Below, in pieces: positions 7,070-24,159 of a stretch of DNA of 29,227 nucleotides. The stretch is from a virus: the IMG/VR virus record IMGVR_UViG_3300030103_000274, positions 1-29,227 of that record; one strand, 5' to 3'. The notes under the pieces were generated by a model, which worked only from the letters and a program-made list of their open reading frames with translations, ran no database searches and had not been told where the DNA came from. The position numbers were made by a program, and so were the translations under genes. Each line of letters opens with the position of its first letter. The stretch's first letter is position 1.

Positions 7070-7525
7070 ATGCCAATTAAAATTGTTGCTAAGAAAAATT
7101 CTAAAAAAGATCCGTTTAGAGCGGATAAAACTGAATCTTTAGATAAAGAATTTAGTAAAAGTGTTAGTAAAGCCAACAAAAAAGCTATGAAAAATGTAAA
7201 AAAGAAACCTGTAATAAAGAAAGGCATTGGCAAAATGCTAGAAACTATTTCTCCTGTTTATAGCATTATGAAGGGTAAAGGCCCCATATCTGAAATTGCT
7301 TCTTCTTTAGGCAGCAGTAGTCTTATTGGAAACTTTGCTCAGAGACAACAAGATAAAGCAAAAAAACGTAGAATGGCTATGGCTGGTGCTAATAAAATGG
7401 ATTCTTCAGCTGTTCCTCAAAGCAATAGAATGACACCTATGACACAGATGATGGCTGGAGGCCCAGTAAAAAGAAAAAGATCAATAGATGGATGTGCTAT
7501 GAGAGGCAAAACAAGAGCTGTATAA
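7070..7525 (+). CDS. Basic protein with KDPFRADKTESLDK block
   Basis: A 151-residue basic protein. Residues 13-46 form a block that recurs at 27 of 34 identical positions in the protein encoded at 10591, so the two share a module. Residues ~58-92 are less charged and could form one or two amphipathic helices. The C-terminus has MMAGGPVKRKRSIDG and then RGKT; the GGPV and SIDG..RGKT pieces are typical tails of marine phage proteins of unknown function. It starts one base after the upstream stop and ends in a TAATG overlap with the zinc-ribbon gene. Confidence 0.65.
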   Translation: MPIKIVAKKNSKKDPFRADKTESLDKEFSKSVSKANKKAMKNVKKKPVIKKGIGKMLETISPVYSIMKGKGPISEIASSLGSSSLIGNFAQRQQDKAKKRRMAMAGANKMDSSAVPQSNRMTPMTQMMAGGPVKRKRSIDGCAMRGKTRAV

Positions 7526-9904: not shown

Positions 9905-10588
9905 ATGGCAGTAGTAGTCCCAGATATACCAGATTTGTTTGAAGAGGCTTATCAAAGAGCAGGATTAGAACTTAGGACTGGTAATGATCTAAGAAACGCA
10001 AGACGTAGTTTTAACTTACTAACTATGGAATGGCAGAACAGAGGTTTAAATCTTTGGACTATAGAGGCTGGTACACAAGCCCTTACATCCGGCACAGCAA
10101 CGTATACGCTGCCAACAGACACGGTAGATCTAGTTGAGCATCAAATTAGAACTGGCACTGGCACAAGTCAAACAGACACAAACTTAACAAGAGTTAGTGT
10201 TTCAACATATGCACAGCAATCAGCAAAAAACTCTACTGGCAAACCCACACAAATCTTTATACAAAGACTAGCTGGTTCAACAACAGTTACATTATGGCCT
10301 GTGCCTGACAGTGCAGATACATATACATTGTCTTATTTTAGAATTGCAGGAATAGATGGGATATCATCTGGTATAGATGGTACAACTACATCATTTGTTC
10401 CACCAAGATTTGTTCCTTGCCTTGTTTCTGGATTAGCTTATTACATAGCTATGAAAAGACCAGAAGTTGCAAACAGAGTTGTTCCCCTCAAACAGGAATA
10501 TGAATTTCAGTTTGAACTAGCAGCAGGGGAAGACACAGAGAGTGCGTCTGCTAGATTTGTACCTTATGACACATTTTACGGAGCGTAA
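9905..10588 (+). CDS. Head-tail adaptor-like protein
   Basis: A 227-residue protein. The helical N-terminus with 'FEEAYQRAGLELRTGNDLRN' and 'ARRSFNLLTMEWQNRGLNLW' resembles the helical body of short-tail connector proteins (P22 gp4 / T7 gp11 type), followed by a beta domain ('GTATYTLPTDTVDLVEHQIR') and a C-terminal helix 'PEVANRVVPLKQEYEFQFEL'. Such proteins form a ring below the portal on which the tail is built. It directly follows the basic peptide gene. A second adaptor-like protein lies at 12578, so which one contacts the portal is open. Confidence 0.7.
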   Translation: MAVVVPDIPDLFEEAYQRAGLELRTGNDLRNARRSFNLLTMEWQNRGLNLWTIEAGTQALTSGTATYTLPTDTVDLVEHQIRTGTGTSQTDTNLTRVSVSTYAQQSAKNSTGKPTQIFIQRLAGSTTVTLWPVPDSADTYTLSYFRIAGIDGISSGIDGTTTSFVPPRFVPCLVSGLAYYIAMKRPEVANRVVPLKQEYEFQFELAAGEDTESASARFVPYDTFYGA

Positions 10589-10590
10589 TT

Positions 10591-11034
10591 ATGCCAATAG
10601 TTATTCAAGAAAAATTTAAAAATACAAATAAAAAAAAGCAGTCTAAAGGTGGTGGTGGAATGGACATAGGCTCTCCTAAAAAAACTACTACAAAAAAATT
10701 GGGAGGCAGTATGTATGTAAGAAAAACAAAACCTGCTGTAAAAGGTTATAAAAATGGTGGTAAGGTTGCAATGCCTAAACCAAGACCAAAGAAAGATCCA
10801 TTTAGAGCAGATAAAACAGAGTCATTAGATAAAAAATTTAGCGCAGGTGTGTCAGCAACTAATAGAAAAAATATGAAAAATGTTAAGAAAAAAGCTGGTG
10901 GCGGTAAATTAAAATCAGTTCCAGAAGGTAATAAAGGTTTAGGAAAATTACCCACACCTGTTAGAAATAAGATGGGTTACATGAAAAAAGGTGGAAAAGT
11001 TACAAAAAAAACCATTAAAAAAGGTGGTAAATAA
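10591..11034 (+). CDS. Basic protein with repeated GG motifs and KDPFRADK block
   Basis: A 147-residue Lys-rich protein. Residues 68-101 repeat, at 27 of 34 positions, the block at residues 13-46 of the protein at 7070, and both chains start MPI[KV]I. It carries at least six Lys-GG motifs (KGGGGMDI, KKLGGSMY, YKNGGKVAMPKPRPK, KKAGGGK, MKKGGKV, KKGGK). No globular domain is recognisable. It sits between adaptor and tail genes, suggesting an internal virion or assembly role; this is context only. It ends in TAATG with the next gene. Confidence 0.65.
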   Translation: MPIVIQEKFKNTNKKKQSKGGGGMDIGSPKKTTTKKLGGSMYVRKTKPAVKGYKNGGKVAMPKPRPKKDPFRADKTESLDKKFSAGVSATNRKNMKNVKKKAGGGKLKSVPEGNKGLGKLPTPVRNKMGYMKKGGKVTKKTIKKGGK

Positions 11035-11408: not shown

Positions 11409-12056
11409 TTGTCGCAACTGATCTGCAATCTCCCTGCAATTCATGTATGGGTAAGAAAAGAATTCTTAAGAGATCATGAAGATGGTCACGGAGAGTTTGT
11501 TAAGGGTGTATGGATATCTTGTAAATCTATGCCGGGAAGAGCATTTTATTTTGAGACTTACTTGCCGGAATACGGGGCCATGTTTGACAAGCTGCCAATC
11601 AGTGCTTTTACATGGGAAAACAAAACCCCAGAACAAGATTTAAGTTTACCTAATTTACAGTTTTGGAATTGTATGGATTATGGGGTAGTTGCAATAGAAA
11701 AACAATTTATTGGATCTATGACATTTGAAGTAATGACCAGAAATGCAGGCACATTTAAAGGTAAGTACATAGCTACAATAGATAATTATCATTCAGATAT
11801 TAATTCTGTTGACTATAGTACAGCAGAAACACCTGCTGAACATAAGTCTCATAACTTAATAGAGCTTGAGAACGGTCAATTTGGTTTATATCCAAATAAT
11901 AGAATGAGGATATATGATAATAGTTTAACGCCAGACAAGCCCTTGATGCCTGACTTTAAAGTTAGTACAGTAGAATATGAGGTTGAAAGCGAAGATTATC
12001 TAGCAAGATACGGTGACAGTGATGATTATTTTTATAAAAGCAAGGATGAAAAATAA
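11409..12056 (+). CDS. Tail-region structural protein (HVWVRKEFLRDHEDGHGE family)
   Basis: A 215-residue protein that starts with TTG directly after the upstream stop. I accept this start because the first residues, 'MSQLICNLPAIHVWVRKEFL', are part of the conserved N-terminus. 'DHEDGHGEFVKGVWISCKSM', 'PGRAFYFETYLPEYGAMFDK' and 'LPISAFTW' are further family blocks. The family is common in marine phages next to tail adaptor genes, but its function is not known to me. The acidic, tyrosine-rich C-terminus (DDYFYK) differs from the basic genes upstream. Virion component or tail-assembly factor are both possible. Confidence 0.65.
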   Translation: MSQLICNLPAIHVWVRKEFLRDHEDGHGEFVKGVWISCKSMPGRAFYFETYLPEYGAMFDKLPISAFTWENKTPEQDLSLPNLQFWNCMDYGVVAIEKQFIGSMTFEVMTRNAGTFKGKYIATIDNYHSDINSVDYSTAETPAEHKSHNLIELENGQFGLYPNNRMRIYDNSLTPDKPLMPDFKVSTVEYEVESEDYLARYGDSDDYFYKSKDEK

Positions 12057-12577: not shown

Positions 12578-13225
12578 ATGAGCTTTACATTAGCGCAATT
12601 AAAAACTGCAATACAGGATTACACAGATAATTCAGAAACGTCTTTTGTGAGTCATTTACCTGATTTTATAAAAGCAGCAGAAGAAAGAATATTTAAGAAT
12701 GTAGATTTAGAAATATTTAGAAAAAATGTAACCACAGCTCTTACAACAAGCGATAAATTTCTAACTATACCATCAGATTATTTAGCATCATTTTCATTAC
12801 AAATAACAACATCTGGTAGTGAGGCATTTCTTTTACAAAAAGATGTCAACTTTTTACAAGAAGCCTATGATGCATCCTCATCCACAGCAACACCCAGATT
12901 CTATGCACAGTTTGATGCAAATAACTTTATTATTGCCCCTACCCCAAACTCTAATTATGCAATAGAATTACATTACTATTATAGACCAACTAGCTTAACA
13001 GCTGGTGCTGATAGTGCCACAACATGGTTAAGTACCAATGCACCATTTGCATTATTGTTTGGATCATTGGTAGATGCTTATATTTTTATGAAGGGTGAGG
13101 CTGATTTGATACAACAATATGAGAAAAGATTTATGGATCAATTAACAAGACTTAAAGATTACGGAGAGGCAAGAGAGAATACTGACGCTTACTCTGAGGG
13201 TCTACCAAGAGCGAAGAGAACATAG
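12578..13225 (+). CDS. SU10/T7 gp11-like tail adaptor protein
   Basis: A 215-residue protein with a helical N-terminus ('DFIKAAEERIFKNVDLEIFR'), a central beta part ('SDKFLTIPSDYLASFSLQIT') and C-terminal helices with 'LLFGSLVDAYIFMKGEADLI' and 'YEKRFMDQLTRLKDYGEARE'. This order is that of the adaptor proteins of short-tailed phages (SU10 adaptor, T7 gp11 relatives), which sit under the portal and bind the tail. It directly follows the preceding stop. Together with the protein at 9905 it suggests two adaptor rings, as in some podoviruses. Confidence 0.75.
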   Translation: MSFTLAQLKTAIQDYTDNSETSFVSHLPDFIKAAEERIFKNVDLEIFRKNVTTALTTSDKFLTIPSDYLASFSLQITTSGSEAFLLQKDVNFLQEAYDASSSTATPRFYAQFDANNFIIAPTPNSNYAIELHYYYRPTSLTAGADSATTWLSTNAPFALLFGSLVDAYIFMKGEADLIQQYEKRFMDQLTRLKDYGEARENTDAYSEGLPRAKRT

Positions 13226-13234
13226 GAGTAAAAT

Positions 13235-13666
13235 ATGGCAACAGCAAATGCAGCTACCAATTATCTTGAGAGAAGAATATTACATTTTTTATTTAAAAAT
13301 AACTCTCTTAGTTTTTCTAGTCCGGGAGATAGTATTTATGTAGGTCTTGCGACAGCAGTAAGTGCAGCAGAGACTGGATCAGTTACAGAGGCAAACTTTA
13401 CAAACTACGCAAGACAACAAGTTACAGCAGCAAACTGGACTACAATAGGTGCAGACTCAACAGATACACAAACTGCGAAGAACGCAGCCAACATAGAGTT
13501 TCCAGCGTCTGGTGGAACAAGTAACACAATAACACATGTGTTTATTGCAGATGCATCAAGTAGTGGGAATATACTTTTTGTAGGTGCTTTAGACGCTAGT
13601 AAAACAATAGCTAGTGGTGATATATTTAGAATTAATGCAGATAACTTAACCATAGAGTTAAAATAA
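13235..13666 (+). CDS. Tail-fibre-associated beta protein
   Basis: A 143-residue beta-rich protein with a ribosome-binding site TAGGAG that overlaps the upstream stop. The pattern 'FSSPGDSIYVGLATAV', 'NYARQQVTAANWTTIG' and 'TITHVFIADASSSGNILFVG' is typical for a family of small phage tail proteins found before fibre genes; it ends with a hydrophobic strand pair 'GDIFRINADNLTIELK'. It is probably a virion component at the base of a fibre. It overlaps the fibre gene by TAATG. Confidence 0.65.
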   Translation: MATANAATNYLERRILHFLFKNNSLSFSSPGDSIYVGLATAVSAAETGSVTEANFTNYARQQVTAANWTTIGADSTDTQTAKNAANIEFPASGGTSNTITHVFIADASSSGNILFVGALDASKTIASGDIFRINADNLTIELK

Positions 13667-15157: not shown

Positions 15158-15526
15158 ATGGCGAACACATTTAAAGTAGTTACATTTGCAGCCGAGCCAA
15201 ATTCTTCGGGAACTCCGTATGTGGTTTATACAGTTGCAGCTAGTAAAACAACTATTATTCTTGGATTAACTTTAGCAAACATACATACTGCTCAAGTTAC
15301 AACTACAGTAAGATTAGTTAGTGATACTGCCAATAGAGCCGTAGCAAACAATACAGCAAATGGAACAAGTATAATTGTACAAAACGCTCCAATACCTGTT
15401 GGTGGTGCGTTAGAACTTATGTCTGGTAATAAATATGTTTTAGAAACAACAGATCAAATTACTGTGGATTGTAGCGTAGCTGATAAACTAAGTGGTACAT
15501 TAAGCATAATGGAGATCGATGTATAA
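15158..15526 (+). CDS. Small beta-sandwich virion protein
   Basis: A 122-residue beta-rich protein just after the fibre gene. 'ALELMSGNKYVLETTDQITV' followed by DCSVADKLSGTLSIMEI resembles the pattern of small phage proteins with an added 'PIPVGGALEL' strand; the product encoded at 26311 follows a similar order (strand, PxGxxLEL-like, L-x-SGE/GD-x-I, final VxSIQE/LSIMEI). Related proteins occur in many marine phages without known role. It may be a small decoration or fibre-base protein. It ends in TAATG with the next gene. Confidence 0.58.
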   Translation: MANTFKVVTFAAEPNSSGTPYVVYTVAASKTTIILGLTLANIHTAQVTTTVRLVSDTANRAVANNTANGTSIIVQNAPIPVGGALELMSGNKYVLETTDQITVDCSVADKLSGTLSIMEIDV

Positions 15527-15981
15527 TGCCTTATATTGGTAATCCAGCAGTTGATAGATTTGTAGTACCCAGAGCAGCTTCTGTTTATTCTGGTGATGGA
15601 TCAACGACTGCCTTTACATTAGAAGCTGGTGTAGGAAGTGATGAAGATATACTTGTGTCTGTAGATGGCGTAATACAAGAACCATCAGTAGGTTATGCTG
15701 TATCTAGTGGTACAACTTTAACATTTACTGCGGCACCATCTAATAACTCTGGTAATAATATTTTTGTTTATTATCTTCACAGAACAATAGGCACAGTTGC
15801 ACCTCCAGTTGAAAGTAGTGGCACTTACAAAGCTAGTGGTATATTTAGAACTAACGTACAGACTTTATCAGACGATATTACAATAACTGCATCAGAAAAT
15901 GCCAATGTTACAGGTCCAATAACTGTGGCAAGTAATAAGACTATTACTGTTGAAGATGGTGGAAGGTTGGTAATTGTATGA
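15526..15981 (+). CDS. Short tail fibre / fibre adaptor
   Basis: A 151-residue protein starting 'MPYIGNPAVDRFVVPRA', followed by a head-binding-like beta domain 'SVYSGDGSTTAFTLEAGVGS' and 'DILVSVDGVIQEPSVGYAVS'. The MPYIG start recurs in the 500-residue fibre at 19375. The C-terminal ~40 residues ('NANVTGPITVASNKTITVED') are a beta-helix-like stretch of the kind found in fibre shafts. It probably attaches a fibre to the tail, or is a short fibre by itself. It overlaps the first gene of the paralogous ladder by ATGA. Confidence 0.65.
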   Translation: MPYIGNPAVDRFVVPRAASVYSGDGSTTAFTLEAGVGSDEDILVSVDGVIQEPSVGYAVSSGTTLTFTAAPSNNSGNNIFVYYLHRTIGTVAPPVESSGTYKASGIFRTNVQTLSDDITITASENANVTGPITVASNKTITVEDGGRLVIV

Positions 15982-16469
15982 GTGAAATACGAGTTAACAA
16001 AATACAGGGTACAAGTGGTACTGATACTGCTATAACTTTAAGTGGTGCAAATGCTACAGTTGGTGGCACACTTGCAGTTACAGGTGTTCATACTATTGGT
16101 AATAATGCAGTTGTTACATCTGATGGCGGAGCAGTAACTTCTAATCTTGCTCAAGGTCAAGTAAAACAATGGGTTAGAACATCTACTGCCTCTGTAACAG
16201 TTGCAGATTCTTTTAACACAGCTTCCGTTACAGACTCAGGAGTTGGTTTGTATGCACCACAATTTACTAACAATATGGGCAATACTAATTATGCAGTTCT
16301 TTCATCATCAGACGATAAACAAGATGGTGGCAGTATATTTGTACATAATATTAACGATGCTGTGGATCAAGCCACTAGTGGTTATGGAACATCAAATAAA
16401 AAATATAGTTATGCTCTTGCTGATGGGAATCAAAACATAGCATCTTCTGCATTAGGAGACCTAGCATGA
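15978..16469 (+). CDS. Fibre tip protein, first of three paralogues
   Basis: A 163-residue protein. The N-terminal ~55 residues ('MSEIRVNKIQGTSGTDTAIT', then a shaft-like GGTLAVTG) are a fibre adaptor; the C-terminal domain starts near 'LAQGQVKQWV' and has 'VADSFNTASVTDSGVGLYAP' and 'QFTNNMGNTNYA'. This domain is repeated in the next two genes with the signature K-x-W, DSFN, TD-x-G, FTN-x-M-x-N and a C-terminal GDLA. It is a typical phage fibre tip. The GGAGACCTAGC coding for its end serves as ribosome-binding site of the next gene (ATGA overlap). Confidence 0.72.
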   Translation: MSEIRVNKIQGTSGTDTAITLSGANATVGGTLAVTGVHTIGNNAVVTSDGGAVTSNLAQGQVKQWVRTSTASVTVADSFNTASVTDSGVGLYAPQFTNNMGNTNYAVLSSSDDKQDGGSIFVHNINDAVDQATSGYGTSNKKYSYALADGNQNIASSALGDLA

Positions 16470-16909
16470 GTACAATTATTGTTGATACATTAACTGGAAA
16501 GTCCACTGCAACAACCATAACCATTGGCTCAACACCTGTAGTTAGTGCAAGCGCAAACTCTTTAACTATTAGAGGTGAGGGTTCAGCACAGACAAGTATT
16601 CAGCAAGGGTTACTTAAAGCATGGTGTAACTACAACCAAGCAAGTGTAAATGATAGCTTTAATGTTGGTTCTGTTACTGATAACGGAACTGGAGATTATG
16701 CAATAGTTTTTACTAATAATATGGCTAATATTAATTTTTCTGGTGGTGGACTTGGAGTTCACGATGCAGGTTCATACACTTCTTTTCAAACTTATGACCA
16801 TGATGACCCAGCACAAACTATAAGATTGACCATTAATATGCAAGGTGTAGACCAAAATAAACAAGATTCAGAACCAGTCTGCACTTTAATAGCAGGAGAC
16901 TTAGCATAA
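16466..16909 (+). CDS. Fibre tip protein, second of three paralogues
   Basis: A 147-residue protein. The N-terminal adaptor 'MSTIIVDTLTGKSTATTITI' differs from that of its neighbours, while residues ~48-147 are the shared tip domain: 'GLLKAWCNYNQASVNDSFNV', 'GSVTDNGTGDYAIVFTNNMA' and a C-terminal AGDLA. Having different adaptors with a common tip suggests that the three proteins occupy different places or compete in the fibre. The start overlaps the upstream stop by ATGA and the end overlaps the next gene by TAATG; GGAGACTTAGC again lies in the last codons. Confidence 0.72.
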   Translation: MSTIIVDTLTGKSTATTITIGSTPVVSASANSLTIRGEGSAQTSIQQGLLKAWCNYNQASVNDSFNVGSVTDNGTGDYAIVFTNNMANINFSGGGLGVHDAGSYTSFQTYDHDDPAQTIRLTINMQGVDQNKQDSEPVCTLIAGDLA

Positions 16910-17289
16910 TGGCAAACGGAACAATAGCATTTGATACATTATCAACAAGTGGGCAGATAAGTGGAACAGCTAAGTCTGTGGATACAGATTACTTGGCATA
17001 TGGTAGTTCCAAAGCATGGTGGAGTTCTAATGATGTTACTTTAAAAGATAGTTTTAATATTGGAAGTTTAACAGATGTTTCAGCATCAACTTATGATTTT
17101 AACTTTACTAATGCTATGGCAAATGATGATTATGCTTATCCTTGTGCCACTCTTAACACAACAGCAAATGATGTGTTGTTAACAACAGGTGTAGTCACTA
17201 CTAGAGTAAGACAAAAAGGTATTACATCTAATTCTGGTAGTGCTGTTGACACACAACCATCAGGTGCAGTAATAGGAGAACTAGCATGA
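16909..17289 (+). CDS. Fibre tip protein, third of three paralogues
   Basis: A 126-residue protein. 'MANGTIAFDTLSTSGQISGT' is a start that I recognise from pelagic phage fibre proteins; the tip domain follows with SSKAWWSS, 'LKDSFNIGSLTDVSASTYDF' and NFTNAMANDDYA, ending in IGELA. It is the shortest and most divergent copy, with the TDxGxGxY part changed to TDVSASTY. The end is coded by GGAGAACTAGC, which is the ribosome-binding site for the following gene (ATGA overlap). Confidence 0.7.
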   Translation: MANGTIAFDTLSTSGQISGTAKSVDTDYLAYGSSKAWWSSNDVTLKDSFNIGSLTDVSASTYDFNFTNAMANDDYAYPCATLNTTANDVLLTTGVVTTRVRQKGITSNSGSAVDTQPSGAVIGELA

Positions 17290-17774
17290 CAATAACTACA
17301 CCAGAATTTCAAGGTACACATCTTTGGGATAGATTGTGTTGGGCAAAAGAAAAGCTAGCGCCAGTAAGAACAGAATATTGTATTGTATGGGAAGATCCAG
17401 AAACACCCGATGAACCTGCAAAAGTTACACATCCTGATCCAAATTGGATGGCTTGTGCATTGCAGGGTGGTATTTTACCTCCAGTTGAGGCATACTGGGA
17501 GTTGAAGAAGGATGAGGCAAAACCAGATTTTGTTAAACATACAAGAGGGTATTTGCTTCACAACACAAAGCCTATTGAGGCAATGACAGAAGAACGAGCT
17601 ATAGAATATTTAATTATGAAAGATATTCCACAACATGTGTGGAGAGATTATGATAAAGCAAATAAACCTAGAATGGTTATTTGTACTAAACAACAGCTTC
17701 CTAGCACTAGAGTATGGCGAAATGCTTGGAAGATTAACGAAGAACTAACCATACAGAAAGAAAAGGTGGCTTAA
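17286..17774 (+). CDS. Fibre-region protein with LPSTRVWRNAW motif
   Basis: A 162-residue acidic/aromatic protein in an ATGA overlap with the fibre ladder. It does not look fibrous: it is Trp-rich with a mixed helix/strand pattern ('HLWDRLCWAKEKLAPVRTEY', 'AIEYLIMKDIPQHVWRDYDK'). Near the C-terminus residues 138-148 read LPSTRVWRNAW, matching VPSDRHFRNAW at residues 21-31 of the next product, a motif that I know from phage fibre-assembly-like proteins. It could be a fibre assembly chaperone or tail accessory protein; this is inference. Confidence 0.6.
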   Translation: MTITTPEFQGTHLWDRLCWAKEKLAPVRTEYCIVWEDPETPDEPAKVTHPDPNWMACALQGGILPPVEAYWELKKDEAKPDFVKHTRGYLLHNTKPIEAMTEERAIEYLIMKDIPQHVWRDYDKANKPRMVICTKQQLPSTRVWRNAWKINEELTIQKEKVA

Positions 17775-18146
17775 ATGGCAACAACAAACATAGTAGATAA
17801 AGATGGTAAATCTATTGCAGCATCAGATGCAACTGTGCCATCAGATAGACATTTTAGAAATGCTTGGACATTATCTGGATCAACAATAACTGAAGATGTA
17901 ACAGCAGCTAAAGTTATCTTTAAGGATAAAATTAGAGAAGTTAGAACTCCGTTATTAGCAGCAGAAGATGTTGTGTATATGAAAGCATTAGAAGAAAGTG
18001 ATAGCTCTGCTCAATCTGCAAGTGCAGCAACTAAGAAAAAGTTAAGAGACGCACCAGCAGCAAGTGCTATATCAAGTGCAGATACTATTGCTAAGTTAAA
18101 AGCAGCTTGGGATAAAGATTTGTTAGGCGATAGTCCTTACGCATAG
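17775..18146 (+). CDS. Fibre-assembly-like protein with FRNAW motif
   Basis: A 123-residue protein starting directly after the upstream stop. VPSDRHFRNAWTLSG is followed by a helical part with 'DVTAAKVIFKDKIREVRTPL' and 'LRDAPAASAI', an arrangement (FRNAW, then helices with D-x-x-K-A-K..IR..R..L) widely found in small proteins near phage fibre genes and thought to be related to fibre assembly. It is not beta-fibrous. The following ribosome-binding site TAGGAG is formed by its stop codon. Confidence 0.65.
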   Translation: MATTNIVDKDGKSIAASDATVPSDRHFRNAWTLSGSTITEDVTAAKVIFKDKIREVRTPLLAAEDVVYMKALEESDSSAQSASAATKKKLRDAPAASAISSADTIAKLKAAWDKDLLGDSPYA

Positions 18147-18155
18147 GAGAATTAG

Positions 18156-19061
18156 ATGGCATTAACAAAAATTACAGGCGAAGGTATAGGCACAACTAGT
18201 GGTGACTTAACTGTAGATGTTGCAGGAGACATTATCCTAGATGCAGATGGTGGAGACTTAATATTTAAAGATGGTGGCACTGAAATAGCTAGATTTTATC
18301 ATGCGTCTGAAAATTTTCAAATTAGAAGCGCTGTTTCTGACAAAGATATAATTTTTCAAGGAAATGATGGAGGTTCAGCAGGAACTGAAATTATGAGAAT
18401 TGATGTGTCTGAACGAAGATTAGGTCTTGGAACAGACTCACCTACAGAAAAACTTTCTATAGTTAATGGAAGTGGTGATGTTGCAATTAGAATACAAGGT
18501 AATACTCGTAGTTTTAAAATAGAACAAAATAATTATGGTTTAAGAATAAATGACTTAGATGCAGATAGTGAAAGATTTAGAATAGATGCCGCAGGTCTTG
18601 TCACAACACCACTTCAATCTTCTTTTTCAGCCGCACCTTCAGCCGACATAAATAATATAACAGGAGATGCTACTACAGCATCCCTTACAAATGTTGCTTA
18701 TACAGAGGCTTTTGATGTCAATGCTGATTTTAATCACGATGACGGAACTAACAGAGGTAAATTTACTGCTCCTGTGACAGGTAAATATTATTTAGGATAT
18801 ACAATTTGTTATTCTGGTATCACAAGTGCTTCAACTTCTGGAGTTCATGCGTTAGCTACATCTAATAGAACTTATAATAATAATTTTAATCCATATAATC
18901 ATGCAAATGTAGGGGTAAATGGTAATATAGTTTTTAGTGCAATATGTGATATGGATGCTAATGACACTGCTCATGTTACATTATATGTAAATGGTAATGG
19001 TGCAAAAGTAGTAGATATTCTAGCATCACAACATAAATTTTTTGGAATGTTAATAGGATAG
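18156..19061 (+). CDS. Tail fibre with C1q-like tip domain
   Basis: A 301-residue fibre. Residues 1-150 are shaft-like with 'GDIILDADGGDLIFKDGGTE', 'FQIRSAVSDKDIIFQGNDGG' and 'LGLGTDSPTEKLSIVNGSGD', common in marine phage fibres. Residues ~153-301 look like a C1q/TNF-type jelly roll: 'EAFDVNADFNHDDGTNRGKF' then TAPVTGKYYLGYTICYSG, a central 'FSAICDMDANDTAHVTLYVN' and a final HKFFGMLIG. C1q-like domains form compact trimers and are good candidates for receptor binding. No protease or lyase residues are visible. Confidence 0.78.
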   Translation: MALTKITGEGIGTTSGDLTVDVAGDIILDADGGDLIFKDGGTEIARFYHASENFQIRSAVSDKDIIFQGNDGGSAGTEIMRIDVSERRLGLGTDSPTEKLSIVNGSGDVAIRIQGNTRSFKIEQNNYGLRINDLDADSERFRIDAAGLVTTPLQSSFSAAPSADINNITGDATTASLTNVAYTEAFDVNADFNHDDGTNRGKFTAPVTGKYYLGYTICYSGITSASTSGVHALATSNRTYNNNFNPYNHANVGVNGNIVFSAICDMDANDTAHVTLYVNGNGAKVVDILASQHKFFGMLIG

Positions 19062-19374: not shown

Positions 19375-20877
19375 ATGCCCTATATTGGTGTCAGCCCTTT
19401 TAATGGGGTCAGAAAAAAACATACATACACTGCCACGGCTAGTCAGACCAGTTTTAGTGGTGCAGGAACTGAGGGTGTAACTTTAAGTTATAAAGACAGC
19501 ACTTTTGTTGATGTGTTCCAAAATGGTGTAAAGTTAGGTGAAGCAGATTATACATCTACAAGTGGTACAGCTATTGTTTTAGCTCAAAGTGCATCGGTAA
19601 ATGATTTAATAGAAGTTGTTGTTTATGATGTGTTTAGTGTAGCAGATACTGTAAGTAAAGCAGATGGTGGTACGTTTGATGGCAATGTTACTATGGGTGG
19701 CACACTTGATGTAACAGGCGTTGCAACTGCTACTACTTTTGAGCCAGATGGCGATACTGCTGCAGGAGACAATGCAGCGATTGGTTATACTGCCACTGAA
19801 GGACTTATACTTACAGGACAAGGATCTACTTCAGATGTAATAATTAAAAATGACGCAGATACTACAGTATGTTTTGTGCCAACGGGAACAGATGATTTAA
19901 AATTTAATGACAGCGCTGCAATTTTATTAGGAACAGACAGCGATATGCAAATCATACATGATGGCTCTAATTCTATAATATCTGATAATGGTACTGGAAA
20001 TTTAGTTTTGCGTTCAAATGCTTCTGCTGTTGAAATTGATTTTAATACTGATGAAACTTCTGCTTTATTCAATCATAATGGTTCAGTAGAACTTTATCAC
20101 GATAATACTAAACGATTTGAAACGACTTCTGGTGGAATAGACGTAACAGGCACTACTACAACAGATAACTTAACTGTAACGGCTTCTGCTGTAAATTTTA
20201 CTGTAGATCAAACTGCAAACAATCTTACTGCAACATTCAAGGGTGCAGGACTTGGTACAATGGAATTGATAGGCACATCAAGTGGTGGCTTTATTGATAT
20301 GACACAAGGTTCAAATGACTATGATGTAAGATTTGGTGGTAATAATAGTGGTGGATATATAGCAAATAATTCAGCAAGTTTTTCTATATCTGGATTAAGT
20401 GGTTTTACTGCTACTATTGTTGGTGCTTTATCTAAGTCATCAGGTTCTTTTAAAATAAGCCATCCTTTAGAATCTAAAAAAGACACACATCATTTATTTC
20501 ATTCATTTGTTGAAGGTCCACAATGCGATAATTTATATAGAGGTAAGATTGAATTATCTAATGGGTCTGCAACAGTAAACCTTGATACTAAATCTGGTAT
20601 GACTGATGGTACATTTGTTGCTCTTAATAGAGACGTACAATGTTTTACCACAAATGAAACGGGTTGGACTGCAATAAAAGGTTCTGTAAGTGGGAATGTA
20701 TTAACAATAACTGCACAAGATAGCTCTTGCACAGATACAATAAGTTGGTTGGTAATTGGTGAAAGACAAGATGATGAAATCAAAGCATCTAGTTTAACAG
20801 ATGATGATGGTAATTTAGTTGTAGAAAAACTTAAATCAGAAGCACCTGATGCAAATCAAAACTATGGAAATGTATAA
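19375..20877 (+). CDS. Large tail fibre with conserved HPL..HSFVEGP tip domain
   Basis: A 500-residue fibre. The N-terminus 'MPYIGVSPFNGVRKKHTYTA' and a beta domain with 'TFVDVFQNGVKLGEADYTST' form a tail-attachment part, as in the short protein at 15526. A shaft of short repeats ('GGTFDGNVTMGGTLDVTGVA', 'DSDMQIIHDGSNSIISDNGT', 'SVELYHDNTKRFETTSGGID') runs to ~350. Residues 354-470 form a distinct domain, with 'SGSFKISHPLESKKDTHHLF', HSFVEGPQCDNLYRGKIEL and SWLVIGERQDDEIK, which I know as the C-terminal part of various phage and bacterial fibre-like proteins. It may be an autoprocessing or receptor-binding tip; the catalytic state cannot be judged. Confidence 0.78.
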   Translation: MPYIGVSPFNGVRKKHTYTATASQTSFSGAGTEGVTLSYKDSTFVDVFQNGVKLGEADYTSTSGTAIVLAQSASVNDLIEVVVYDVFSVADTVSKADGGTFDGNVTMGGTLDVTGVATATTFEPDGDTAAGDNAAIGYTATEGLILTGQGSTSDVIIKNDADTTVCFVPTGTDDLKFNDSAAILLGTDSDMQIIHDGSNSIISDNGTGNLVLRSNASAVEIDFNTDETSALFNHNGSVELYHDNTKRFETTSGGIDVTGTTTTDNLTVTASAVNFTVDQTANNLTATFKGAGLGTMELIGTSSGGFIDMTQGSNDYDVRFGGNNSGGYIANNSASFSISGLSGFTATIVGALSKSSGSFKISHPLESKKDTHHLFHSFVEGPQCDNLYRGKIELSNGSATVNLDTKSGMTDGTFVALNRDVQCFTTNETGWTAIKGSVSGNVLTITAQDSSCTDTISWLVIGERQDDEIKASSLTDDDGNLVVEKLKSEAPDANQNYGNV

Positions 20878-22890: not shown

Positions 22891-24159
22891 ATGGCAAGCA
22901 CATATACAACAAACAATGGCATAGAGAAAATTGGTTCTGGAGAACAGGCTGGAACTTGGGGTACAACTACAAATGCTAATTTAGATATTATAGATAAAGC
23001 TATTAATGGTGTTGAAGCTATTACATTATCAGGCACCTCTAAAACAATTACAACAACAGATGGTTCTGCGGCATCTGAGGGTGTTAATAAAGTATTTGTT
23101 TTTTCAGGATCACCGGGTGGAACATGCACAGTCACATTATCGCCAAATGACCAAGAAAAAGTTTATTTAATTAAAAATAGTTCAGATCAAACAGTTCTTA
23201 TAAGTCAAGGCAGTGGTGCAAACGCATCTTTAGCGGCTAATGAAACAGCTTGGGTTTTTAGTGATGGAGCAGGATCTGGTGCTGCTGTAACAAAACAAGA
23301 TGTATCATCTTCTCCTGCGGCCTTTACAGTTGGTACAAATTTAACTGTAACAGGTGATGCTTCTGTAGGTGATGATTTATCTTTAGCTTCTGATGGAGCT
23401 ATATTAAATTTTGGCGCAGATAGTGATGTAAGCCTTACACATGTTGCTGATACTGGTTTATTATTAAATAGCACAAGACAGTTACAGTTTAATGACTCTA
23501 CACAAAACATTAATGCACCAAATGCAACAACTTTAGATATAAATGCCACAGACGAAGTTGAAGTTAATGCAACCTTGATCGATGTAAATGGCAACTTAGA
23601 TGTATCTGGCACCTCAACATTAACAGGCAATGTAACTTTAGGCGGTCAACTCATCATGCCAGATGTTACTGATACTAAGATATTAATTGCAGATGGCACA
23701 AGCTATCAAGAACGCTCAGTAAGTGGCGATGTAACTATATCAAATACTGGCGTAGCAACAATAGCAAACAATGCAGTAGAAACTGCCATGATAGCCGATA
23801 ACCAAATAACTACTGCAAAACTAGCAGGAAGTGTTGCGGTTATAGGGATGAGTGCTAAAGTAACTGTTTCTGGAGGAAACCCAGCTATAACAGCTTCTGT
23901 AAATACTAGTGGAATAACAGATTCTGGAACAGGAGACTTTACTATTGCCATTGCTACAGATTATTCTGATGCAAATTATGCAGTATCAGCAACTACTTTT
24001 GATGATGACGGAACAAACAGAAACATAGGTGAGTTAACTGTAGATACACAGGCAGCAGATACTATATTAGTAAAATCTTTTAGACCAAGTGCTTCAGAAA
24101 ATTCAGCAAGAAGTTCTTTTGATCCTGATGGATTTTATGTAATGAGTAATGCTCAATAA
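22891..24159 (+). CDS. Tail fibre (YTTNNGIEKIGSGEQAGTWG start)
   Basis: A 422-residue fibre. 'YTTNNGIEKIGSGEQAGTWG' and TTTNANLDIIDKAINGV form a frequently seen N-terminal adaptor of marine phage fibres; the next ~80 residues are a beta domain ('KVYLIKNSSDQTVLISQGSG'). The shaft has 'GDASVGDDLSLASDGAILNF', 'DSTQNINAPNATTLDINATD' and 'LIDVNGNLDVSGTSTLTGNV'. The C-terminal part, 'ASVNTSGITDSGTGDFTIAI' and YSDANYAVSATTF, resembles the tip domain of the three paralogues at 15978-17289. It likely forms a trimer with its own tip. Confidence 0.78.
   Translation: MASTYTTNNGIEKIGSGEQAGTWGTTTNANLDIIDKAINGVEAITLSGTSKTITTTDGSAASEGVNKVFVFSGSPGGTCTVTLSPNDQEKVYLIKNSSDQTVLISQGSGANASLAANETAWVFSDGAGSGAAVTKQDVSSSPAAFTVGTNLTVTGDASVGDDLSLASDGAILNFGADSDVSLTHVADTGLLLNSTRQLQFNDSTQNINAPNATTLDINATDEVEVNATLIDVNGNLDVSGTSTLTGNVTLGGQLIMPDVTDTKILIADGTSYQERSVSGDVTISNTGVATIANNAVETAMIADNQITTAKLAGSVAVIGMSAKVTVSGGNPAITASVNTSGITDSGTGDFTIAIATDYSDANYAVSATTFDDDGTNRNIGELTVDTQAADTILVKSFRPSASENSARSSFDPDGFYVMSNAQ

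Follow-up and report, generated by a model that had tools for sequence, protein, structure and literature searches.

Why would a phage encode what looks like the same fiber tip three times in a row, and would it use the three copies together or choose among them? This question is raised by the stretch of DNA analyzed here (the window), a piece of 29,227 bases from the record of a marine phage, which holds a structural module with portal, head proteins, tail genes, a fiber cluster, holin, and lysozyme. A first-pass annotation had described three consecutive ORFs as paralogous tips on different adaptors, and had proposed either that a particle carries several specificities or that a tip is chosen by expression level. 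The three ORFs, which we call slots 1, A, and B (15978-16469, 16466-16909, and 16909-17289), were found as annotated, all on the + strand. They are chained to each other and to their neighbors: the preceding gene, 15526-15981, overlaps slot 1 by 4 nt, slot 1 overlaps slot A by 4 nt, slot A overlaps slot B by 1 nt, and slot B overlaps the gene starting at 17286 by 4 nt.

All three ORFs share a C-terminal domain of ~105 residues, each behind another N-terminal adaptor. The slot 1 protein (15978-16469, + strand) consists of adaptor G (residues 1-55) and a tip of the type we call DSFN (residues 56-163), the slot A protein (16466-16909, + strand) of a 43-residue adaptor (MST..DTLTGKSTATTITIGSTPVVSASANS..RGEGSAQT) and a DSFN tip at residues 44-147, and the slot B protein (16909-17289, + strand) of an adaptor of ~27 residues (MANGTIAFDTLSTSGQISGTAKSVDTD) and a DSFN tip at residues 28-126. 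As single sequences, the three tip ORFs were paired by phmmer among the window ORFs with E values of 4e-14, 4e-8, and 1.5e-9. An iterated family profile, which detects 256 domains in the window, in 80 related loci, and in two annotated phage records, matched slots 1, A, and B with i-E values of 2.7e-24, 1.5e-34, and 5.4e-20, each match spanning the domain up to the C-terminal residue. Chance similarity was ruled out: when every window ORF was shuffled 20 times and reversed once, the best E value was 0.08. Hence, the homology that the first-pass annotation had proposed to check by profile comparison was found (E of 5e-20 to 2e-34), and its motifs were present as described: KQW/KAW/KAW, DSFN in all three, TD, FTNNMGN/FTNNMAN/FTNAMAN, and a final GDLA/GDLA/GELA. 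The three ORFs also matched PHROG 11355, "tail fiber protein" (9.3e-11, 5.3e-14, and 7e-12). The adaptors, in turn, are different, as had been claimed. In profile-profile comparison, G of slot 1 and the slot A adaptor reached a probability of 19%, and the slot B adaptor was akin to none.

An AF2 model of the slot A protein is all-beta, with block-mean pLDDT values of 85 to 97 over residues 51-140 and a less certain adaptor (pLDDT 59-75). Searching the PDB with the tip fold yielded no match at an E value of ≤0.001, the best being the phiAB6 tailspike (E of 0.044), and the best solved chain matched by the tip sequence profile (A1) had an E value of 0.25. Among predicted viral proteins, 54 matched the tip model at an E value of ≤0.001, including cyanophage and other phage tail fibers.

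A related tip had also been assigned to the end of the fiber encoded at 22891-24159. This holds for the tip core, of which a diverged relative lies at residues 324-396 (23860-24078, + strand): the C terminus of the fiber matched a profile built without it (E of 1.9e-11), hhalign gave 97% over 48 columns, and PHROG 11355 was matched at 2.2e-5. However, the similarity spans about 50 to 70 columns only, and the last part of the fiber is unrelated and ends in SNAQ, so that the final motif and the end of the domain are absent.

What might the tips be attached to? Directly upstream lies a 151-aa protein (15526-15981, + strand; MPYIG...) with no tip of its own, which we call base 1. It matches PHROG 18673, a tail fiber family (1.2e-27), and resembles the T7 fiber N-domain of Pfam (PF03906; 4.5e-4, 20.4 bits, below the cut-off of 25.2). 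In a fold search, the top 14 PDB matches were nearly all podophage tail or fiber proteins, mostly the T7 gp17 N terminus, although they were weak (E of about 1e-2, prob 0.99 to 1.0; model pLDDT 73, pTM 0.44) and, as with the tip, did not reach an E value of ≤0.001. The last 55 residues of base 1 (residues 97-151; 15814-15978, + strand) form a module, hereafter the socket, that is also found at the C terminus of other bases preceding separate tip genes and at the end of long fibers (422 aa in Microcystis phage Mel-JY33, 527 aa in locus L067, and 533 aa in L070). The socket is absent from 12/12 fibers in which a second base is fused to a longer protein. Furthermore, where base 2 is a protein of ~152 aa, tips (slots D, E, and F) come next in 13/13 loci, while a fused base-2 fiber of 281 to 639 aa is followed by tips in 0/10. 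The window itself has a fused base 2 of 500 aa without socket or separate tips (19375-20877, + strand). This correlation suggests that the socket is the docking site of the tips, and the first-pass annotation had missed that the upstream gene 15526-15981 probably bears it. In two loci (L046 and L052), the fused base-2 fiber terminates in the DSFN tip domain itself, which shows the tip in a fiber-end position.

The arrangement was then compared across 80 IMG/VR loci obtained by scanning viral contigs with the slot A (middle) protein. With slot A as the query, the presence of this slot and, in part, its frequent DSFN tip are given by construction, but the order around it is not. This order is fixed: a base (~150 aa), slots 1, A, and B, homologs of the genes at 17286 and 17775, often a slot with a MALTK-type adaptor, and a second base. 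Slot B follows slot A in 67 loci, and further D-E-F triplets occur downstream. In 62/64 loci, slot 1, starting with ATG or GTG, overlaps the end of the base ORF, stop codon included, by 4 nt. Since start and stop codons overlap at -4 or -1 at nearly every junction, the three tips would be made together, giving a particle with several specificities. The proposed array of alternative tips on different adaptors is thus supported, and it keeps a fixed order behind a base. Of the two options proposed for its use, the coupling speaks for several specificities and, together with the slot-specific adaptors, against a choice by expression level. One could still imagine that all three tips are made and compete for one socket, at a ratio set by their translation levels; after all, the same domain ends all three proteins, and paralogues could share one site. 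Yet the adaptors are slot specific and largely dissimilar, that of slot B being akin to none, and they are 74 to 90% conserved within a slot, which is not expected of rivals for one site. In addition, two different triplets and three cultured phages all show the layout of a base plus three tips. We therefore give such a competition only a small chance of being right, and favor tips that each have a place of their own.

Conservation falls off sharply along these proteins. Within a slot, identity is 74 to 90% in the adaptors, 39 to 55% in the tip core (the first 49 tip residues), and 13 to 16% in the distal part (30% in the six-member slot G), and it returns to 91 to 100% in the last four residues. 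In near pairs, dN/dS is 0.10 for the adaptor, 0.21 for the core, and 0.23 for the distal part. The latter value indicates that the variety is old or derived from exchange rather than from recent diversifying point mutation, and it lacks the nonsynonymous excess in the variable part by which diversity-generating retroelements are recognized. No reverse transcriptase was found among the window ORFs scanned, the record being an incomplete fragment, and with a dN/dS of about 0.2, tip diversification by point hypermutation or a retroelement is improbable. The gradient also bears on whether these proteins are receptor-binding tips at all. A virion decoration or stalk protein that had simply been duplicated in tandem and had no receptor function, varying by drift or immune-like diversification, would fit the lack of a solved homologue and the fact that the PHROG name is annotation only. 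Such a protein would not be expected to have a nearly random distal half next to a conserved adaptor and core, with purifying dN/dS in near pairs, nor to be fused to the end of base 2 as in the two loci above. Moreover, the tips interchange with C1q-type tips, which Mizuno et al. count among the host-recognition genes of variable islands in marine phages (PMC3909814). A decoration or stalk protein is thus improbable, and we retain the reading of a putative receptor-binding tip.

If point mutation does not account for the variety, exchange might. Near-identical tips were found on different adaptors, which the first-pass annotation had missed and which, judged from the sequences, would represent cassette-like movement. 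Twelve clusters with ≥50% distal identity occupy two or more adaptors. For instance, the slot 1 tip of L005 and the slot A tip of L023 are 100% identical at the protein level on different adaptors, and the distal tip of window slot 1 is 97% identical to the slot D tip of L048, again on another adaptor; all such cases come from metagenomic contigs, and some could be mimicked by chimeric assembly. The shared DNA tract starts at a QG-x-x-K box or in its vicinity, a little before or after it in some pairs, and ends ≤2 nt from the stop codon in 7/8 pairs. Each copy of an exchanged tip nevertheless has the upstream and downstream neighbors that are right for its own slot, which speaks against chimeric assembly. 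On the tip tree, the slot label changes 58 times, compared to 92 at random and a minimum of 8, and part of these changes may be tree error. As the label is still informative, exchange appears frequent but not free. Alike tips were seen in 0/247 pairs from the same contig; because less than one was expected (52/18,728 across contigs), this says nothing about an avoidance of equal tips within one genome.

How could a tip be moved without disturbing the gene behind it? The final G-D/E-L-A had been taken as a signature of the tip. It is indeed present in all three proteins, but it overlaps the ribosome-binding site of the gene that follows and is therefore not simply a protein signature. In the window, an in-frame Shine-Dalgarno GGAG and the next ATG are read as the final GDLA of slot 1 (GGAG at 16455-16458; box 16455-16468, + strand) and of slot A (16895-16898; 16895-16911, + strand), and the GGAG and the ATG of gene 17286 as the final GELA of slot B (17275-17278; 17275-17288, + strand). 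The DNA behind this motif is GGAGAnnnnGCATGA or GGAGAnnnnGCATAATG. Among 192 terminal boxes, G is encoded by GGA in 189 (background, 33%) and A by GCA in 187 (background, 51%), and in 191 the ATG that follows is at -4 or -1. The distance from GGAG to this ATG is exactly 7 or 10 nt in 167/169 tip junctions, compared to 7/140 non-tip junctions with the same overlaps, and GGAG is kept even where the protein ends in GDLS, GDSA, GDIA, GDMA, GVSA, or GDQA. Conversely, the last and uncoupled tip of Mel-JY33 lacks GDLA. A purely protein motif was dropped in favor of a dual constraint after these codon and spacing tests, with the fused fiber of Dunaliella virus SI2 as a counterexample: it keeps GDLA with GGC in place of GGA, so that the peptide may matter too. 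The terminal box is therefore at least an expression signal, may in addition have a role for the protein, and, as far as the sequences tell, would let any tip work in any slot. In support of the expression signal, one tip (L070, around 5988) ends in GTLA but has a second copy of the box (GGAGACTTAGCATGA, CGGAGACTTAGCATGAGTGA) directly behind its stop codon, which looks like the trace of a frame change or of an imprecise exchange.

The number three invites a further explanation, namely, that slots 1, A, and B form one three-chain knob. Two triplets, as well as HMO-2011, Mel-JY33, and HTVC115P, have exactly three tips for each base, as a heterotrimeric tip would require. However, different folds mix within a triplet: in the Puniceispirillum phage HMO-2011, base 2 is followed by a DSFN, a C1q (PF00386; 4e-10), and a DSFN tip. 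By simple end-motif classes, 42 of 64 loci have a DSFN tip in slot 1, 10 an EIGG-type tip, and 12 a C1q-like or other tip, the latter two making up 22/64. Tips also move singly between slots. Because DSFN and C1q-type folds mix within a triplet, a single heterotrimer of all three is highly improbable, and separate, exchangeable tips remain the preferred reading. Loci with a non-DSFN tip in slot 1 often have an additional gene of ~93 to 107 aa between slot 1 and slot A (L026, L029, L032, L037, L039, L047, L049, L063, and L077). In Pfam searches of these ~100-aa genes, one matched XkdW (PF09636; 2.4e-13) and no other match exceeded the cut-off. Such a gene may be a chaperone traveling with the non-DSFN class.

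The two genes behind the triplet are conserved. The first (17286-17774, + strand), a candidate assembly factor without Pfam or PHROG match, is mostly 85 to 97% identical in relatives with differing tips and 72% identical to its HMO-2011 homolog. The second (17775-18146, + strand) matches PHROG 20196, of unknown function (1.5e-28), also has a homolog in HMO-2011, and, given its position, is a possible fiber-assembly chaperone. Next comes a MALTK-type slot (18156-19061, + strand) with a C1q-like tip (PF00386; E of 0.013, below the cut-off). In relatives, this adaptor class carries a DSFN tip in 8 ORFs and other tips in 4.

Taken together, we propose a split, modular fiber whose three cotranslated tips are exchangeable cassettes, a model that we regard as probable. 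The short base protein (15526-15981) would dock on the tail and end in the socket, and the tips of slots 1, A, and B would be translated directly after it from overlapping start and stop codons. The slot-specific adaptor probably sets the place of each tip, either on the socket or on a neighboring tip. The end domain, predicted to be beta-rich, would have a conserved core and a hypervariable distal half, the latter probably in contact with the host surface. It would be portable as a cassette running from the QG-x-x-K box to the terminal box, in which the following gene has both its ribosome-binding site and its start. With these boundaries, the operon could stay intact when a tip is transferred to a different slot or phage. 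The homology of the tips, the slot order, the coupling, the conservation gradient, the exchange, the overlap of the terminal box, and the socket correlation can be read directly from the sequences. From these, we infer docking via the adaptor, homotrimeric tips, binding to host receptors, and the presence of all three tips on the virion. The particle would then carry several tips at once, although we see the chances for and against simultaneous display of all three as about equal. That each fiber of these abundant marine phages bears three tips at once, and that a common pool of cassettes is shuffled among slots and phages, so that recombination and not hypermutation would produce a combinatorial repertoire for host recognition, is a more tentative extension, to which we give somewhat less than an even chance.

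Elsewhere in the window, the small, very basic ORFs 7070-7525 and 10591-11034 share KKDPFRADKTESLDK-F-S...KNVKKK (phmmer E of 5e-13), and other small Lys/Arg-rich ORFs lie amid the structural genes (6051, 6553, 7667, 7927, 9641, and 11034). These small basic ORFs perhaps encode DNA-binding internal virion proteins. Two further ORFs, 9905-10588 (2e-13) and 12578-13225 (1.7e-26), have the SU10 adaptor protein as their Pfam match and represent head-tail adaptor paralogues in one and the same tail. The gene at 11409-12056 is ~68 to 69% identical to a T4-like cyanophage gene annotated as "ferredoxin" (PHROG 3704; 2e-107), a T4-like relative that contrasts with the podovirus-like tail of the window. 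Since the gene is kept among structural genes, this label looks doubtful.

If the model is correct, it would explain how host recognition varies with a conserved tail in phages of the HMO-2011 type, in some pelagiphages, and in at least one cyanophage. Swapping of tips between connectors may be a way in which these phages vary the host cells they can recognize. Host range would then be a combination of a few identifiable cassettes, and the question would become testable for uncultured marine phages. The terminal box also holds a warning for annotation, in that a C-terminal GDLA lying over an expression signal should not, on its own, be taken for a protein motif.

Modular fibers with variable tips are known, and the HMO-2011 genes have already been annotated as fiber proteins; in the records of HMO-2011, Mel-JY33, and HTVC115P, the genes are labeled tail fiber or hypothetical protein. 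In the literature that we searched, whose results did not include the original HMO-2011 paper, we found no prior account of the ladder, no description of a cassette logic in HMO-2011, and none of a socket base with exactly three slot-specific, cotranslated, exchangeable tips and a built-in ribosome-binding site.

HMO-2011, a cultured SAR116 phage, likewise has two bases with three tips each in its tail module (gp41 to gp28). Its gp41 is 54% identical to base 1 of the window, five of its proteins belong to the DSFN tip family (gp40, gp37, gp34, gp32, and gp29), and its tip junctions show the same GDLA/GGAGAC as the window family. Its triplets are DSFN, EIGG-type, DSFN and DSFN, C1q, DSFN; unlike in the window, the middle tips thus belong to other classes (gp39, EIGG-type; gp31, C1q, PF00386 at 4e-10). 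Each triplet contains a small gene, and gp38 matches the tail-assembly chaperone family Phage_tail_APC (PF16778). In Mel-JY33, the long socket-ended fiber is followed by exactly three small DSFN tip genes that overlap or adjoin, the last of which is uncoupled. Pelagibacter phage HTVC115P has a base that likewise ends in the socket and exactly three small overlapping or adjacent tips of C1q/TNF character and no DSFN domain; in Pfam, one lies above the C1q cut-off, one just below the TNF cut-off, and one is without such a match.

Among the well-studied systems, the gp38-type adhesins of T-even phages such as T2 and PP01 are separately encoded, hypervariable tips at the fiber end, with one adhesin per fiber. 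The tips in the window are likewise separate and hypervariable, but there are three of them, on three adaptors. A gp38-like docking on the fiber end would be consistent with the socket correlation, the observation on which this comparison is based; the three tip ORFs gave no Pfam or PHROG match relating them to gp38. The Ralstonia podophage GP4 is described as having three types of tail fibers (J Mol Biol 2023, as cited in PMC10925440). ORF 13235-13666 of the window matches PF23140, "Podophage GP4 fiber I protein gp80" (2.7e-30; score of 105.8 with a cut-off of 27 bits), and PDB 8jou (1.1e-10). The likeness to GP4 consists in several kinds of fiber on one short tail, the tip ladder itself being without a match to a solved chain. 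Finally, the variable islands of marine phages described by Mizuno et al. include C1q-type genes among the host-recognition genes (PMC3909814). The passages of that paper covered by our search do not mention tandem tips, adaptors, or cassette junctions. As far as these passages go, the metaviromic islands and the loci studied here have in common hypervariable fiber C termini together with C1q-like genes.
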